Below, piece after piece: positions 9,991-63,996 of a stretch of DNA of 64,000 bases. Source of the DNA: an uncultured bacterium (GTDB taxonomy: Bacteria; Elusimicrobiota; Elusimicrobia; Elusimicrobiales; Elusimicrobiaceae); contig CASFTM010000002.1 in assembly GCA_949297775.1 (NCBI GenBank), positions 101,249-165,248 of the forward strand, read 5' to 3'. The position numbers were made by a program, and so were the translations under genes. The notes below the pieces were generated by a model. That model was not told the DNA's origin, did not search any database, and worked only from the letters and a program-made list of their open reading frames with translations. Within the stretch, counting starts at the first letter, position 1, and each line of letters starts with the position of its first letter.

Positions 9991-10563
9991 TTATTTCAGC
10001 CTATATGCATTTACATTGCCGCCTTCAAACCAATGAAAAGCAAAACTCCGGTTGAGGGTGCCATTCAGTGATTTGCAGACCTGGTTGCCTACCGCACTGT
10101 CCGCCGCCGCCCAACATTCTTCTTCCCCCGGTGCAAAAGTGGAATTCTCCAAGAACATCACATAACCCGTTATGTTGCCTTCTCTGGAAGGCTTTGTTAC
10201 GCCTAAAACGGCAGAGGTGGCACCGCCTGTGCCGACCCTTAAATCAATCATAGCCTGGGCGCATTTAATAGAACCGTTATCATAGTAAGGAGAACATCCT
10301 TCCGGCAGATCAAACCCATCCAAAGCCGTATCATCATCGGGCGGATAGGTTCCATTGGCAATATAATACACTTCCGCTTGGTCTTTAATGGAACGTACGG
10401 CGGCCATCACGCTGGATAAACGGCTTTTTTCCACCGCTACTTGGTATTTGGGCAACGCCACCGCCGCCAAAATACCAATAATTAAAACGACTACTAACAA
10501 CTCTATTAACGTAAATCCGGCGTTTTTTCCCGCCGGGAGGGTTTTTTGATAAATTTTGCTCAT
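9991..10563 (-). CDS. Type IV pilin (cassette 1)
   Basis: A 190-residue prepilin. A 16-residue leader (MSKIYQKTLPAGKNAG) is cleaved before [19 protein letters not shown], with Gly at -1 and Glu at +5 as prepilin peptidase and assembly require. The hydrophobic helix continues to ALPKYQVAVEKSR. The variable globular C-domain has several cysteines. The first 50 codons are nearly identical in DNA sequence to the pilin at 61.0 kb, while the C-domain is unrelated in detail. The ATG at 10563 lies in the loop of a perfect inverted repeat and has no Shine-Dalgarno; an in-frame TTG at 10569 is an alternative start. Structured repeats lie upstream. Confidence 0.9.
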   Translation of the reverse strand: MSKIYQKTLPAGKNAGFTLIELLVVVLIIGILAAVALPKYQVAVEKSRLSSVMAAVRSIKDQAEVYYIANGTYPPDDDTALDGFDLPEGCSPYYDNGSIKCAQAMIDLRVGTGGATSAVLGVTKPSREGNITGYVMFLENSTFAPGEEECWAAADSAVGNQVCKSLNGTLNRSFAFHWFEGGNVNAYRLK

Positions 10564-10583
10564 ACGCAAAATTTATCAAAAAA
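10542..10583 (-). repeat. Perfect 18-bp inverted repeat enclosing the pilin start codon
   Basis: The arms 10542-10559 and 10566-10583 pair perfectly (outer T6/A6, inner GATAAATTTTGC/GCAAAATTTATC). The six-base loop TCATAC holds the ATG complement at 10561-10563. The same arrangement recurs at 61555-61592, with the inner pair changed from GC/GC to GG/CC. Confidence 0.85.
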
Positions 10584-10597
10584 AAAAAACAAATCAA
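10571..10597 (-). promoter_or_regulatory. Candidate pilin promoter with T12 spacer
   Basis: On the minus strand, TTGATT is followed by TG, twelve Ts (10578-10589) and GA, giving a 16-base spacer to TAAATT. The ATG comes six bases after that -10. The block CTTGATTTG-T12-GATA is identical upstream of the pilins at 21.5 and 61.6 kb. The promoter reading is inferred; the homopolymer and its conservation are seen directly. Confidence 0.5.
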
Positions 10598-10684
10598 GGG
10601 GCGAGCCGCCCCTCCCCTTCCTTTACCCGTTAACGCGATTAGTGGAGCCACATTATTTCCACAATGTTGCACCCTTGCACAACG
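10598..10684 (-). repeat. Pilin-associated structured repeat, copy 1
   Basis: The unit begins (plus coordinates) with a hairpin GGGGCG/CGCCCC (10598-10612). A conserved core of about 60 bases follows (CCCGTTAACGCGATTAG, then ACAATGTTGCACCCTTGCAC), ending in a second small hairpin GTTGC/GCAAC type. Similarity to the 21.6 kb copy continues to about 10765 through CTTGCCGGGGGCAGG and TGCTTACGTAA. No conserved reading frame. Confidence 0.8.
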
Positions 10685-10800
10685 ACACCTTGCCGGGGGC
10701 AGGGCCTTCCAGGCCGCGGGGCTCTGCCTCGGAGAGGGGTTTGCAAAACACGGTGCTTACGTAAAGAGGAAACAACAAGTTGGGAATATCTTTGCAAAAA

Positions 10801-10884
10801 GTGAGTCGCCCCTCCCTTTCCTTGACCCGTCAGCACGACTAGCTGGGCCGCACTGTTCCCGTGCTGTCGCGCCCTTGTGCCACG
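10801..10884 (-). repeat. Pilin-associated structured repeat, copy 2
   Basis: A second copy in the same orientation about 200 bases further from the pilin. Core CCCGTCAGCACGACTAG, then CACTGTTCCCGTGCTGTCGC. The GC hairpin at the edge is only half preserved and there is no T12 tract, so it looks like a decayed unit. The rest of the gap 10570-11025 shows no gene. Confidence 0.7.
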
Positions 10885-20988: not shown

Positions 20989-21477
20989 TTAAGATATTAA
21001 ACAGCCGCCGTCGGTAAAATTGCCTTTGCAAAGCGATTTACAAAAAGCTTCATCTGCGGGCTTGCTCCCGACCATACAGTACATTCCTGCCGGCATGGTT
21101 GTATTTTCATCTACTTCCAAATCGTCCACAAACAAAACAATACTGTAGGAGTAGGTATCCGATTCCCGGGTAGCCATCGGGCCAAACCAACTGAGGCCAA
21201 ATTCAAAATTTTTAGTCCGATAGTCGCCTGCCGAATCCGGTTTCAAGACATCTTCCCAAATAAGCGCTACATCATCCGGATTCCCAACATTAAAAGTTCC
21301 CTTTCCACCCAAGCTGTACACCGTAATATTTTGCCCCGCCTTACGCAGGAGAGCATATACTTCAGTCAAACGGCTTTTTTCCACGGCCAGCTGATATTTG
21401 GGCAACGCCACCGCCGCCAAAATACCGATAATCAGCACGACGACCAATAATTCTATCAAAGTAAAACCCTTTTTCAT
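20989..21477 (-). CDS. Type IV pilin (cassette 2)
   Basis: A 162-residue prepilin with a very short leader MKKG before [19 protein letters not shown]; Gly-1 and Glu+5 are intact. The helix continues to [13 protein letters not shown]. The C-domain is about 110 residues with four cysteines toward its end ([20 protein letters not shown]), probably two disulfides. Unlike cassettes 1 and 3 it has an ordinary ribosome site (AAGGAGTG) and no inverted repeat at the start codon. The upstream T12 block and structured repeat are nevertheless the same. Variable C-domains on a constant stem suggest adhesive or minor pilins with distinct surfaces. Confidence 0.9.
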
Positions 21478-21556
21478 AAAACACTCCTTAGCAAGTTGAT
21501 TTAAAGGCTTAACTACAGTCTAATAATTAACAGCCAAAAATCAATGCTAGGGCCAG

Positions 21557-21582
21557 TGTATCAAAAAAAAAAAACAAATCAA
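21557..21582 (-). promoter_or_regulatory. Candidate pilin promoter with T12 spacer (cassette 2)
   Basis: On the minus strand, TTGATT, TG, twelve Ts (21563-21574) and GA lead into TACACT with 16-base spacing. The tract length and flanks equal those at 10.58 and 61.59 kb, although the downstream leader differs completely. Confidence 0.5.
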
Positions 21583-21584
21583 GG

Positions 21585-21667
21585 GCCAGCGGCTGGCTTC
21601 CCTTCTCTATGCCCGTTAGCACGATTAGTTTAGACCACACTGTTCCCGTAATGTTGCACCCTAACGG
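21585..21667 (-). repeat. Pilin-associated structured repeat, copy 3
   Basis: Hairpin GCCAG/CTGGC at 21585-21597, different in sequence from copy 1 but at the same place. The core is CCCGTTAGCACGATTAG, then CACTGTTCCCGTAATGTTGC. Similarity to copy 1 continues to about 21735 (CTTGCCGGGGGCAGG, TACTTACGCATAA). The remainder of the gap 21478-21789 has no gene. Confidence 0.8.
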
Positions 21668-21736
21668 AAAAGCTCTTGCCGGGGGCAGGCGTTCTGCCTC
21701 GGACAGGGTTCCGCCAAGTATGGTACTTACGCATAA

Positions 21737-61004: not shown

Positions 61005-61574
61005 CTACTGCATGCGATAATAACGTCCATTTCCGAAAATAGGTGAAGCCGGGCTGTGAAAGAGCTTTACGCAATAATCCCCCGAATTTTTTTCAAATAC
61101 GAGGCCATTGGCCACCCGTTCTATGCACAAGATCGTTTTTTCCGGCAGGCTGTTACTCCTTCCAAAAAAGCCAAACCCCGCCCCCCGATAGACCCCAGAC
61201 AGCCGCCCCATATATAAACCGGCGTGAGAGGCATTGTGGATAATTTGCAAGGACCAATCCCCATTGGAACGGGTATCTGTAAAACCGGTGGCAAGCCATT
61301 TTTCGCTTCCCGTCCACGCGGTCATATCCACATCCATTTGGTCAAACAAGGTGGGATATTCGCCGTTAGCCATATAATATGTTTCAAATGCCTGCTGCAG
61401 GGAATAAAGTAACGTCAGCGCCTGGGTGGCGCGGGATTTTTCCACCGCTTTGGTATACTGCGGCAAGGCTACTGCCGCCAAAATACCAATAATTAAAACG
61501 ACCACTAACAGCTCTATTAGCGCAAATCCGGCGTTTTTCTTCGCCGGGAAGGGGTTTTGATAAATTTTGGTCAT
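61005..61574 (-). CDS. Type IV pilin (cassette 3)
   Basis: A 189-residue prepilin. Leader MTKIYQNPFPAKKNAG is cleaved before [19 protein letters not shown]; Gly-1 and Glu+5 are present. The stem continues ALPQYTKAVEKSRATQALT, and a variable C-domain follows with two cysteines (ILCIER, DYCVKLF). The ATG at 61574 lies in the loop of a 16-bp inverted repeat, with TTG at 61580 as an alternative. Upstream T12 block and structured repeat match cassette 1 closely. Confidence 0.9.
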   Translation of the reverse strand: MTKIYQNPFPAKKNAGFALIELLVVVLIIGILAAVALPQYTKAVEKSRATQALTLLYSLQQAFETYYMANGEYPTLFDQMDVDMTAWTGSEKWLATGFTDTRSNGDWSLQIIHNASHAGLYMGRLSGVYRGAGFGFFGRSNSLPEKTILCIERVANGLVFEKNSGDYCVKLFHSPASPIFGNGRYYRMQ

Positions 61575-61592
61575 AGCCAAAATTTATCAAAA
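61555..61592 (-). repeat. Perfect 16-bp inverted repeat enclosing the pilin start codon
   Basis: Arms 61555-61570 and 61577-61592, loop TCATAG holding the ATG complement at 61572-61574. The loop-proximal pair differs from cassette 1 (GG/CC here, GC/GC there) yet pairing is kept. Confidence 0.85.
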
Positions 61593-61608
61593 AAAAAAAA
61601 CAAATCAA
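61582..61608 (-). promoter_or_regulatory. Candidate pilin promoter with T12 spacer (cassette 3)
   Basis: Minus strand TTGATT, TG, twelve Ts (61589-61600), GA, TAAATT; ATG six bases later. Same as cassette 1. Confidence 0.5.
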
Positions 61609-61683
61609 GGGGCGGGCCGCCCCTCCCTTTCCTTCATCCGTTCACACGACTAGTGGGGGCTACACCGTTCCCGCAATGCCGCG
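61609..61683 (-). repeat. Pilin-associated structured repeat, copy 4
   Basis: Hairpin GGGGCG/CGCCCC at 61609-61623, then a core that is shortened at the far end (CCGTTCACACGACTAG, ACCGTTCCCGCAATGCCGCG). Confidence 0.78.
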
Positions 61684-61820
61684 CTATCAAAAAAGGGAAG
61701 TCGTTTCCGCTTTTGTCGTTGCCGTTGCCGTTTATCCGGCCCTTTTGCCCCGTCTATAAAAAGCGTTTTAAACGGATTAGGAATTTTATTTGTTTGAGCG
61801 CGGGGAACCGCGCGAGTTGT

Positions 61821-61981
61821 AAAATTCCCCGTTTAAAACTGCTTTTTATGGGACCTAAAATTCCCCGTTTAAAACTGCTTTTTATGGGACCCTGGGGAGG
61901 CGCTTTTTGGTACTTTTTCCCACCGGAAAAAGTACAAATAAATTTATTTCCCGCTTGAAAGTGATTTTTATGGGGCCCTGG
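61821..61981. repeat. 36-bp tandem repeat with hairpins
   Basis: Two near-identical 36-base units (61821-61856 and 61857-61891; AAAATTCCCCGTTTAAAACT then GCTTTTTATGGGACC) and a degenerate third (about 61943-61981). An 11-bp hairpin GTACTTTTTCC/GGAAAAAGTAC (61910-61935) lies between units two and three. A further inverted pair CCGGCGC/GCGCCGG (61983-62016) follows. No coding capacity is evident. Confidence 0.75.
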
Positions 61982-62038
61982 GCCGGCGCTCTTTTTCGCC
62001 CTTTTTCTGGCGCCGGGAAAAGAGCCCCCCTTGCCGGG

Positions 62039-62127
62039 GCCCAGAGCCTGGGCTCCCTTCTCTATACCCGCCAACACGATTAGTTTGGGACACACTATTC
62101 CTGCAATGTTGCACTCTTGCGCAACGG
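62039..62127 (-). repeat. Pilin-associated structured repeat, copy 5
   Basis: Hairpin GCCCAG/CTGGGC at 62039-62053, core CCCGCCAACACGATTAG and CACTATTCCTGCAATGTTGC, terminal hairpin GTTGC/GCAAC (62108-62125). Not followed by T12 or a pilin start. Confidence 0.78.
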
Positions 62128-62130
62128 CCC

Positions 62131-62201
62131 AGAGGCTAGCCTCTCTATGCCCATTAACACGGTTTGGTTAAAACCCACCGTTCTTGTATTGCCGTAAGCG
62201 G
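62131..62201 (-). repeat. Pilin-associated structured repeat, copy 6
   Basis: Palindrome AGAGGC-TA-GCCTCT at 62131-62144, then a diverged core (CCCATTAACACGGTTTGG, CACCGTTCTTGTATTGCCG). In tandem with copy 5. Confidence 0.7.
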
Positions 62202-62242
62202 GCACAACACCCTCCAACCAATGTTTTACTTCTTTTTCAGGG

Positions 62243-62299: not shown

Positions 62300-63460
62300 T
62301 TACTGCTCCTGTGCTTCGCAGAAGTAGGCTTCTCCCTGAACAACTTTGCCTACGGCGCATTGTCCATCAGCGGAAGAAAAACTCAAACCAACACAGGACG
62401 AGCAGCCTTTGCGGATATCCAGCGGAGTATTAAACAGTCCACCGTCATTAGCTAAACAAGATTCCCCGCACGTAGCAGAATACTTGCTGCACCGGGTGCA
62501 CATAATTTCCTGTCCAGAAGCATAACCGTTACCTTTGCATTTTCCATCTAGGCCCAAATGTCCGGCAGAATGTGAATTTTGAAAGTTCACCACTTCTACT
62601 GTACAGTTATTCCCATTGGGGCCCGACGGGGACCCTCCTTCATAGTATGTAATAACACTCTGTCCATAGGTCAACCCAGCCGAACTGCTGGAGGGATTCC
62701 CCGCAAATCGCCAGCCCACCAATACATTCTTTTTAACCGGTACAAATTTGTATACTTTGCGGCATCGGTTTCCATTGTTCGGGTCCCGCTCCTCTCCAGG
62801 GGGGCAGTCTTCCTCGCAGGTTGCCACTGTTCCGCCGTTGGGATGTTGCTTGTTCACCGCTTTGGCACCGTTGGGGCAAAGCGGGCAGCTGCAGGTGGGG
62901 TGATTGGCAATAGAAGATGCATCACGTATTTTCGTCCACTTGCCATCAGCTGACACCGAATACATCGCTAAACAAGGCGACCGATATTGGGTATTACATT
63001 TTGCGCATTTTTCCCGAGGGTCATCCCCTTCCCGGTACGTGGCAGCGGCAGTCCAACCACGAGTTACCATTTCAAAGCCGGCAGCTTCATACCCAGGATA
63101 GAGTTTATTGAGTTCATCATTTAACGTATAGCAGGAAGGGCTGTTGTATGTAGGACGGGGAGATACGCCGCACCAATCCAAACAACTGGCTTCGCAAATT
63201 CCAAATTCATTACGTTCAAATCCTTCCGGGCACTCTTCGCAATCACTTATTTCCTTATCGCATTCACTCCAGGCGCCCGTATCCCATTGCCCGGTGGCTG
63301 TGTTACACGTTACCGTGCGCGTCTGCGTGCCGCAGCCGTTACACGTTTGGCTGCTCGCCGGCTGCGGGTCCGTACATTCACACGCGTCCGATATGCTGCA
63401 CGCCCCCCACGCACTCCACTGCCCCGTAGTAGTATTGCACGTACGCGTCTGTACGCCCAT
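62300..63460 (-). CDS. C-terminal part of a frameshifted pilin-adhesin: Cys-rich thrombospondin-like ectodomain
   Basis: A 386-residue open frame that is the continuation of the pilin gene starting at 63996; removing one unit of a 29-bp duplication joins the two into 555 residues. It opens with two thrombospondin type 1-like repeats (MGVQTRTCNTTTGQWSAWGAC; CGTQTRTVTCNTATGQWDTG) and continues with many CxxC and CPxCP-type pairs, over 30 cysteines in all. No signal or ribosome site precedes the ATG at 63460, so on its own it would be neither exported nor well translated. The ectodomain probably sat on a pilus tip as an adhesin. Confidence 0.8.
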   Translation of the reverse strand: MGVQTRTCNTTTGQWSAWGACSISDACECTDPQPASSQTCNGCGTQTRTVTCNTATGQWDTGAWSECDKEISDCEECPEGFERNEFGICEASCLDWCGVSPRPTYNSPSCYTLNDELNKLYPGYEAAGFEMVTRGWTAAATYREGDDPREKCAKCNTQYRSPCLAMYSVSADGKWTKIRDASSIANHPTCSCPLCPNGAKAVNKQHPNGGTVATCEEDCPPGEERDPNNGNRCRKVYKFVPVKKNVLVGWRFAGNPSSSSAGLTYGQSVITYYEGGSPSGPNGNNCTVEVVNFQNSHSAGHLGLDGKCKGNGYASGQEIMCTRCSKYSATCGESCLANDGGLFNTPLDIRKGCSSCVGLSFSSADGQCAVGKVVQGEAYFCEAQEQ

Positions 63461-63996
63461 TCCTTTACATCCGCACGCCGTACGCCCATTCCTTTACATC
63501 CGCACGCCTGTGTGGAGGCTCCCACGCATTCCCGCGGTTCAGGCTCCCCAGCGCATTCCGCGCCGCTCTGATAGTCCGCGTATGCGATTAATTCACTGCA
63601 TAACGGATAATCTTTATTCAGCTTCGCGCACTGTTCCGCACTGTCGCAGCACAAACGACCGTCCCGGTACGACGGCATCTTTAACGTATAGCCATACTTC
63701 CCTTTGCTCTGCGCTTCTATGCCCGTGCTCGTTACGCTGTAGCTGAAATTCTTCGTGTCGCTAGACGGCAATACATCCGTAAGCTTGGACAAGTCCGCCA
63801 AGTAGTTCTTGTCCAGCGCACACCGACGTTCCTGCTCCGTGCGCACCGCCGACATCAGCTCCTCCGCTTCCGTCGTCTTGCGCGTTTCTATTACTTTATT
63901 GAACTTCGGCAATACCACTGCCGACAGTACGCCTATCACGATAACCACTACCAACAATTCCGTTAACGTGAAGGCTCGCTTCTTCTTAAAAGACAT
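63310..63996 (-). CDS. N-terminal part of the frameshifted pilin-adhesin
   Basis: A 228-residue frame. MSFKKKRA is followed by FTLTELLVVVIVIGVLSAVVLP, a class III signal with Ala rather than Gly at -1 and Glu at +5. The pilin domain runs to about residue 160 with Cys pairs (RRCALD, RLCCDS, EQCAKL, PLCSEL). After CGCKGMGV (about residue 172) the 29-bp duplication shifts the frame into an Arg/Ala-rich missense tail to the end. In the ancestral frame the next residues are QTRTC of the thrombospondin-like part. The upstream region lies beyond the window edge. Confidence 0.8.
   Translation of the reverse strand: MSFKKKRAFTLTELLVVVIVIGVLSAVVLPKFNKVIETRKTTEAEELMSAVRTEQERRCALDKNYLADLSKLTDVLPSSDTKNFSYSVTSTGIEAQSKGKYGYTLKMPSYRDGRLCCDSAEQCAKLNKDYPLCSELIAYADYQSGAECAGEPEPRECVGASTQACGCKGMGVRRADVKEWAYRRVRAILLRGSGVRGGRAAYRTRVNVRTRSRRAAKRVTAAARRRAR
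63451..63508 (-). repeat. 29-bp perfect tandem duplication causing a frameshift
   Basis: Copy A 63451-63479 and copy B 63480-63508 are identical (GTACGCCCATTCCTTTACAT followed by CCGCACGCC). Because 29 is not a multiple of three, two copies break the pilin-adhesin reading frame and one copy restores it. Confidence 0.95.

Follow-up and report, generated by a model that had tools for sequence, protein, structure and literature searches.

Pilin genes, R1 repeats and a predicted shared T-tract promoter

The stretch analysed here, called the window, comprises 64,000 nucleotides from an uncultured Elusimicrobiaceae bacterium (assembly GCA_949297775.1, contig CASFTM010000002.1, positions 101,249 to 165,248) and carries, among others, type IV pilin genes on the minus strand at 9991–10569 (PF07963, N_methyl, E 3.6e-8), 20989–21477 (PF07963, E 6.5e-8) and 61005–61580 (PF07963 and PF16732). 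Our subject is a repeat, R1, found upstream of each of these genes, and the predicted promoter with a tract of T residues that stands between R1 and the pilin. The initial annotation had described six copies of the repeat, oriented like the pilin genes. A covariance model now locates each of them, at agreeing coordinates, on the minus strand and upstream of one of these three genes (window positions are contig coordinates minus 101248). Three copies adjoin the predicted −35 box of the respective pilin gene, at 10597–10682 (E 6.8e-23), 21583–21669 (E 1.0e-21) and 61608–61694 (E 1.8e-18). A second copy upstream of the first gene lies at 10797–10882 (E 2.4e-16), and the third gene has two further copies farther upstream, in tandem, at 62038–62124 (E 5.7e-23) and 62126–62207 (E 5.1e-7, the weakest of the six).

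The R1 unit is about 84 bases long and, in the sense of the pilin genes (minus strand of the window), reads approximately GTTGCGTAAGGGCGCGAC-ATTGCGGAAACAGTGTGG-CTC-AACTAATCGTGTTAACGGGCATAGAG-AAGGGA, followed by a boundary hairpin; the core outside the hairpin is conserved in the alignment of copies. The model was built from 55 of 68 near-full-length copies, the other 13 being omitted for a different 3′ hairpin, deletions or a weak match, and finds 110 copies in the 1.69-Mb genome of this bacterium. Earlier counts were 65 genome matches by a first blastn search and 86 copies by iterated nhmmer in selected stretches. The same genome contains 87 N_methyl pilins (PF07963). Association with pilins, which had been set as the check on genome-wide matches, held: a same-strand N_methyl pilin lies no more than 1 kb downstream of 87 of the 110 copies and no more than 1 kb upstream of three, and opposite-strand pilins are absent from the 1 kb around all 110.

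Immediately 3′ of R1 the sequence continues as TTGATT or TTGAC, then a run of T residues and GATA. We read this arrangement, TTGA(C/T)-N-(C/T)-G-T12-GA-TANANT, as a predicted promoter with a −35 and a −10 box. Upstream of the first pilin gene the predicted −35 box TTGATT (10592–10597), the T12 tract (10578–10589) and the predicted −10 box TAAATT (10570–10575) follow one another on the minus strand, the −10 box ending 6 bp before the ATG (10561–10563). The third gene has the same arrangement on the same strand (TTGATT, 61603–61608; T12, 61589–61600; TAAATT, 61581–61586, again 6 bp before the ATG at 61572–61574). Because the predicted −10 box ends so close to the ATG, a leaderless pilin mRNA is predicted for this, the commonest class. 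The second gene is of a leadered class, also on the minus strand: TTGATT (21577–21582) and T12 (21563–21574) are followed by a predicted −10 box TACACT (21555–21560) and a leader of about 80 nt with AAGGAG.

The strict pattern occurs at 58 sites in the window's genome, 53 of them with a pilin 44–86 bp downstream; of the remaining five, four come within 110 bp of a contig end and the fifth stands before a damaged pilin. The reversed pattern has no match in that genome. A looser pattern, TTGAYNNN-T-GATA, gives 60 sites, at all of which a homopolymeric T tract separates the two predicted boxes, and 55 of the 87 pilins have such a T promoter. Tract lengths over the 60 sites are T12 at 53, T13 at three, T11 at two, and T10 and T9 at one each (one site being taken as TTGATTTGA-T12). 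In the window and 36 further stretches, chosen around R1 matches, all 42 T runs of nine or more fall within the promoter arrangement. The predicted spacer, NG-T12-GA, is 16 bp long, and would be 17 bp with T13 and 14 bp with T10. In other genomes position 6 of the −10 box, outside the search pattern, is T at 125 of 126 sites, position 4 is A at 87 of 127 and position 5 of the −35 box is C at 104 of 127. The −10 preferences beyond the pattern support a sigma-70-type promoter with a 16-bp spacer, although promoter activity is here a prediction.

R1 lies within 1.5 kb upstream of 47 of the 60 T promoters; the distance between its end and the −35 box is −1 to +5 bp for 39 sites and 91–123 bp for eight. 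Conversely, 93 of the 110 R1 copies are followed by a T-tract promoter within 1 kb, and among the 32 pilins that lack the promoter just one has R1. R1 is therefore linked more closely to the T-tract promoter than to pilins as such.

Variation between orthologs and distribution among relatives

In four relatives, T lengths range from T8 to T16 among the sites listed, with T12 the commonest in each; one further site has 17 T residues straight after TTGA, and one tract is interrupted by a C. We compared orthologous promoters in a set of 131 sites (48 of 60 from the window's own genome, 21 of 21 from G011, 13 of 16 from G013, 29 of 30 from G020, 18 of 23 from G023, and two from G028), from which sites with less than 500 nt downstream or with sequence that was not retrieved had been dropped. 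In 82 reciprocal-best pairs with at least 700 bp aligned downstream, T length differs in 47. Where both sides have the leaderless arrangement (55 pairs), T length differs in 34 and the distance from tract to pilin motif in seven. When ungapped identity across the next 44 nt is required to reach 80% or more, 40 pairs are left, and T length differs in 24 of them. Examples are T13 versus T10 at 93.8% downstream identity and T15 versus T10 at 92.1%. Tract length thus varies while the flanks stay, as seen between species, each represented by one assembly. At sites without G before the tract the count depends on the regular expression used for the ortholog comparison; one site of the window's genome reads as T9 by that expression though it is T12, and is in no pair, and the affected loci of relatives, L285 and L289, differ from their partners either way. 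A first indel control, in which 47 of the 82 pairs showed a gap downstream of the tract, gave way to the distance comparison, as it allowed free end gaps and included promoter-class swaps.

R1 itself is present or absent at orthologous sites. In 81 pairs with at least 150 bp upstream, it adjoins the promoter in both members of 13, in neither of 36 and in one only of 32. Several of the one-sided pairs keep homology in the farther flank (94.9% over 292 bp, for example), the R1-bearing side being longer beside the promoter. Of repeat and promoter, R1 is likely the younger; individual promoters seem to have acquired it, with recombination among the many similar copies as the probable route.

Of 61 genomes searched, 20 contain the strict promoter pattern, and all of these belong to the genus of the window's genome: 20 of its 37 members are positive, the window's own included, against none of the 24 genomes from elsewhere in the order. 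A positive genome has between 1 and 58 sites. These counts are a lower bound because variants escape the pattern (L092, L094, L096 and L103). An exact scan of 84,980 species for the T12 pattern gave at least 117 stretches, and among the 80 matches listed 76 are named Elusimicrobia and four ‘uncultured bacterium’. For the T12 sites in other genomes (n = 127, among the matches listed), 96 precede a pilin start and nine lie at edges. Several non-pilin T12 sites open, by eye, onto signal-peptide-like starts (L139, L150, L151, L169, L191, L210, L216, L250 and L251), and at L139 R1 adjoins, again by eye, the T12 promoter of a non-pilin gene; the T-promoter regulon may cover further secreted proteins besides pilins.

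R1 was found in 10 of 41 genomes of the genus, and in 12 of 101 genomes of a sample of the order, all within the genus. At 20 promoter loci, 19 of them from relatives, R1 is present at three, one of which is in the window's own genome, and absent from 17. The T-tract promoter is the wider feature, often present without the repeat. When 24 R1 loci of relatives were inspected by eye, the last copy was followed by a T-tract promoter in 19; of those with no promoter in view, L101, L108 and L114 stop at a contig edge, and L102 and L116, which overlap, show none in the stretch examined. A phage origin was considered and rejected, as a viral collection held no exact match of either the promoter pattern or the R1 core. 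Our literature search found no description of a T-tract pilin promoter family or of R1. The Elusimicrobium minutum genome is said to contain many pilin genes.

The T promoters and R1 copies of the window's genome (G000) keep to one strand per contig, without exception for R1 over 23 contigs. In 22 of 24 contigs the strand that bears the pilins has a positive GC skew. Neighbouring open reading frames of at least 200 aa lean the opposite way (78 on the same strand versus 136 on the other), so the strand lock is not explained by the direction of neighbouring genes. The rpoB gene is on contig C16, where neither a T promoter nor R1 was found, and matches to the EF-Tu family are split; we do not firmly call the pilin strand the leading replication strand. 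The 90 sites of the four relatives also keep to one strand per contig. Both strands are used on the large contig C1 of G034 and, judged by start-codon palindromes, on contig C3 of G015; these could contain a replication origin or terminus, or be true exceptions.

The boundary hairpin, the start-codon palindrome and other repeats

R1 is closed by a hairpin with a 6-bp stem and a 3-nt loop, as in GGGGCG-GCT-CGCCCC at 10598–10612 and GGGGCG-GCC-CGCCCC at 61609–61623 (both minus strand). The initial annotation had proposed that the letters of this hairpin change while its pairing is kept. We tested 78 of 84 aligned half-length copies, six poor ones having been dropped by eye, a choice that favours structure. 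The hairpin cells are paired in 87.4%, against 61.9% in shuffles, and the covariation score is 0.505 versus 0.151 (sd 0.017) in shuffles and at most 0.215 in slid controls. All six pairs show two-sided changes, a number also reached by 113 of 500 shuffles. Only seven distinct perfect stems occur among 76 distinct rows, so few independent events lie behind the covariation. The compensatory change stands for the family of 78 copies and does not extend to every copy in the window: at 10797–10882 only two of the six pairs are Watson–Crick, and the copy at 62126–62207 has a different hairpin, out of register (both by eye).

The mismatches of the boundary hairpin are strand-symmetric, with 15 GT or TG and 16 AC or CA in the 76 distinct rows. 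Equal numbers of G·T and A·C mismatches make the pairing look like a property of DNA and not of an RNA strand; a DNA palindrome, a cruciform or palindrome-making mutation fits, whereas an RNA helix would be expected to differ. Two other stems that had been proposed for R1 did not hold up. ACATT/AGTGT is 81% paired, yet none of its five pairs shows a change on both sides, and GTTGC/GCAAC is paired in 76.8% against 76.3% in shuffles. A long alternative stem from RNAalifold (columns 10–14 with 49–53) was dropped, being mostly G–U with little two-sided change. Rfam reported no family at its cut-offs in the window except two tRNAs, and at E up to 1 it gave three matches, all far below the cut-offs.

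A second palindrome surrounds the start codon in the leaderless class: at 10548–10577 (minus) it reads GATAAATTTTG-CGT-ATG-AG-CAAAATTTATC, and at 61555–61592 (minus) its 16-nt arms are 100% complementary. It too covaries, with a score of 0.187 versus 0.068 (sd 0.011) in 48 distinct variants of 114 sites; two-sided change occurs in five of 11 pairs, and 60 of 500 shuffles show as many. Among the matches listed for G015, at least 13 sites have GATACATTTTG...CAAAATGTATC, at least one has GATAGATTTTG...CAAAATCTATC, and at least two have changes in the right arm only. We read the palindrome spanning the −10 box and start codon as a likely dyad operator, since the −10 box is overlapped by its left arm and since, by eye, a palindrome accompanies the −10 box and not the ATG in the leadered relatives L070, L071 and L077.

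Other repeats lie near the pilin genes. A 36-bp unit is exactly duplicated in tandem at 61820–61891, upstream of a pilin, with a third, diverged copy at 61942. By eye, further modules recur upstream of pilins (61904–61941 in the window; L038, L062 and L124), for example palindromes of the GTACTTTTT...AAAAAGTAC type and a CCATAAAAATCACTTCCAA block. Several contigs end close to this block. What lies upstream of pilins looks like a mosaic of several repeat families. In the large pilin-like gene at 62300–63996 (minus), the frame breaks at 63451–63508, exactly at a tandemly duplicated 29-bp unit; the duplication is not a multiple of three, and the overlapping frame beyond it is open for 386 aa, possibly a slipped-strand frame switch.

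Interpretation and comparison with known systems

We favour, with a probability of about 0.6, a reading in which R1 modules are stacked upstream of a shared, predicted sigma-70-type pilin promoter, usually with T12 between its boxes, where the gain or loss of T residues would shift the spacing and likely retune each pilin separately. A change in tract length would alter the distance between the −35 and −10 boxes and so turn individual pilins up or down independently; repeats between these boxes are reported to affect sigma docking (PMC4081817). R1 would act as a DNA-level upstream module, whose conserved core is probably protein-binding and whose closing palindrome, free in its letters with pairing kept, may block read-through into the promoter. 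It would spread from promoter to promoter. From the observed positions, orientation and linkage of these elements, their T lengths and ortholog differences, the hairpin covariation and the absence of an RNA-strand signature, we read the system as a pilin-wide slippable promoter regulon, similar to porA and fim, with a spreading DNA repeat as upstream module; switching and the function of the repeat are what we infer.

A broader formulation, which we offer tentatively and consider rather doubtful, is that of a contingency system in this Elusimicrobia genus, several records of which come from the rumen. Up to about 60 promoters of pilins or other secreted proteins, each with its own T8–T16 spacer dial and all on the same strand per contig here (nearly always the GC-skew-positive one), would be joined by a self-spreading 84-bp DNA module that adds a second layer of control.

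Several observations weigh against a retunable promoter with R1 as its module. The match to the −35/−10 consensus is just 8/12 in the window's leaderless class, and a consensus promoter scan at the window loci did not report the predicted promoter of that class. R1 is absent within 1.5 kb at 13 of the 60 T promoters, some of them at contig ends, and for 23 of the 110 R1 copies no pilin follows within 1.5 kb. Several of these copies lie at contig ends (C7, C26, C28, C29 and C31), another three stand before a pilin whose start is damaged (C14:15168–15614) and one before a pilin remnant (C5:47956); those at C1:16032–16580, C15:15710/16001, C2:18612–18978, C4:118883–119045, C14:31955 and C24:3746 have no such explanation. 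The relative G002 has 19 R1 copies and one strict T promoter (one of its loci has a variant promoter and three run into a contig end), and in other genomes 22 of the 127 T12 sites do not precede a recognised pilin start. As to tract length, the ortholog pairs share loci, and non-overlapping sets show a T difference in 18 of 38 or 11 of 23; the distance from tract to pilin differs or is unmatched in 31 of the 82 pairs, mostly through promoter-class swaps, so the distance control is clean only within the leaderless class. The differences are between species and come from metagenome assemblies, in which homopolymer errors are possible.

The uniformity of T12 here (53 of 60) also counts against free switching, since stabilising selection fits it as well or better. 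It invites the explanation that the T tract is a rigid, fixed 16-bp spacer held at 12 by selection, with no switch, and that its length changes only rarely, in evolution or in assembly, an explanation with a real chance of being correct, though we would not expect it to prevail. The shared preference for T12 in each of the four relatives agrees with it; the leaderless-class orthologs that differ in T length (34 of 55 pairs, T13 versus T10 at 93.8% identity among them) do not, and a non-homopolymer sequence could be rigid without slippage. We think it unlikely that the boundary hairpin, with TTGATTTG-T12, forms an intrinsic terminator that shields the pilin promoter from upstream transcription, the T tract serving as both terminator and promoter part. 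The likeness is a GC-rich hairpin before a T run: a consensus scan flags it as terminator-like at 61607–61625 and 10596–10614 (minus), and in at least one relative without R1 (L083) another hairpin stands directly before the −35 box (by eye). The differences from an intrinsic terminator are that the T run begins 8 nt past the stem, that hairpins within tandem arrays have no T run and that mismatches are strand-symmetric, with no excess of GT pairs; moreover, 17 of the 20 promoter loci examined lack R1. The T-richer TTGAT form is commoner at R1-adjacent promoters (32 of 49, versus 11 of 51 without R1; p 1.6e-5), but this link is carried by the window's genome alone and is gone once that genome is removed (p 0.53), and we rejected it.

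Two further explanations concern R1. It could be chiefly a spreading repeat, a mobile or recombining module that regulates nothing and rides on the duplication and conversion of pilin promoters. Its presence in only one ortholog of 32 of 81 pairs, with upstream homology retained in several, its occurrence in 10 of 41 genus genomes, the copies at pilin-less sites and the strict strand lock would all follow, and we regard this as quite conceivable, if not the explanation that we expect. It accounts less well for a core conserved outside the hairpin and for placement at T promoters in a single orientation, with exact abutment in 39 of 60. An integron attC site was set aside, since R1 is dispersed over 23 contigs with no motif fit by eye, no integrase search having been made. 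The idea of the initial annotation that R1 could be a regulatory RNA leader, or more generally a structured leader or small RNA, draws on the covariation of the boundary hairpin and the orientation common to R1 and the pilins, and now seems very improbable. R1 lies upstream of the predicted promoter and not between promoter and gene; because it ends near the −35 box it would, if the predicted promoter is right, not be in the pilin mRNA. The balance of GT and AC mismatches shows no strand preference, the two other stems tested lack support, and no Rfam family besides the two tRNAs reaches its cut-off in the window. The other roles suggested for R1, a protein-binding or insulating DNA element or a spreading or recombining module, are possible.

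The retunable promoter that we favour resembles several promoters described elsewhere. The spacer of the porA promoter is a homopolymeric G tract at a single promoter; here a T tract is found at about 60 promoters per genome, with extra repeats upstream, and switching is a deduction. What is shared is variable −10/−35 spacing at a surface-protein promoter, as described for porA of Neisseria meningitidis (van der Ende 1995, cited by its title in PMC5084427). According to PMC1891110, the length of a C stretch in the fimbrial subunit promoters fim2, fim3 and fimX of Bordetella alters transcription. These too are fimbrial subunit promoters with a length-dependent homopolymer; under the model treated in that paper, tract length determines how far the activator region lies from the −10 box, the tract is of C and not T, and the genes are few. 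In sabA of Helicobacter pylori, a T tract (T13 in the wild type) serves as a rheostat of an adhesin promoter, as PMC4081817 describes, whereas the T tract of the pilin promoters fills the spacer. In pathogens, homopolymer-tuned promoters are known for individual genes or small groups of genes; here a single predicted promoter of this type is present about 60 times in a genome of 1.7 Mb, and 55 of these copies serve pilins. The system is well suited to testing how one bacterium manages so large a repertoire of surface fibres. Lengths that centre narrowly on T12 but spread widely in the relatives amount to a natural experiment on the spacer. R1, for its part, provides a case of hairpin covariation that appears to come from DNA and not from RNA.
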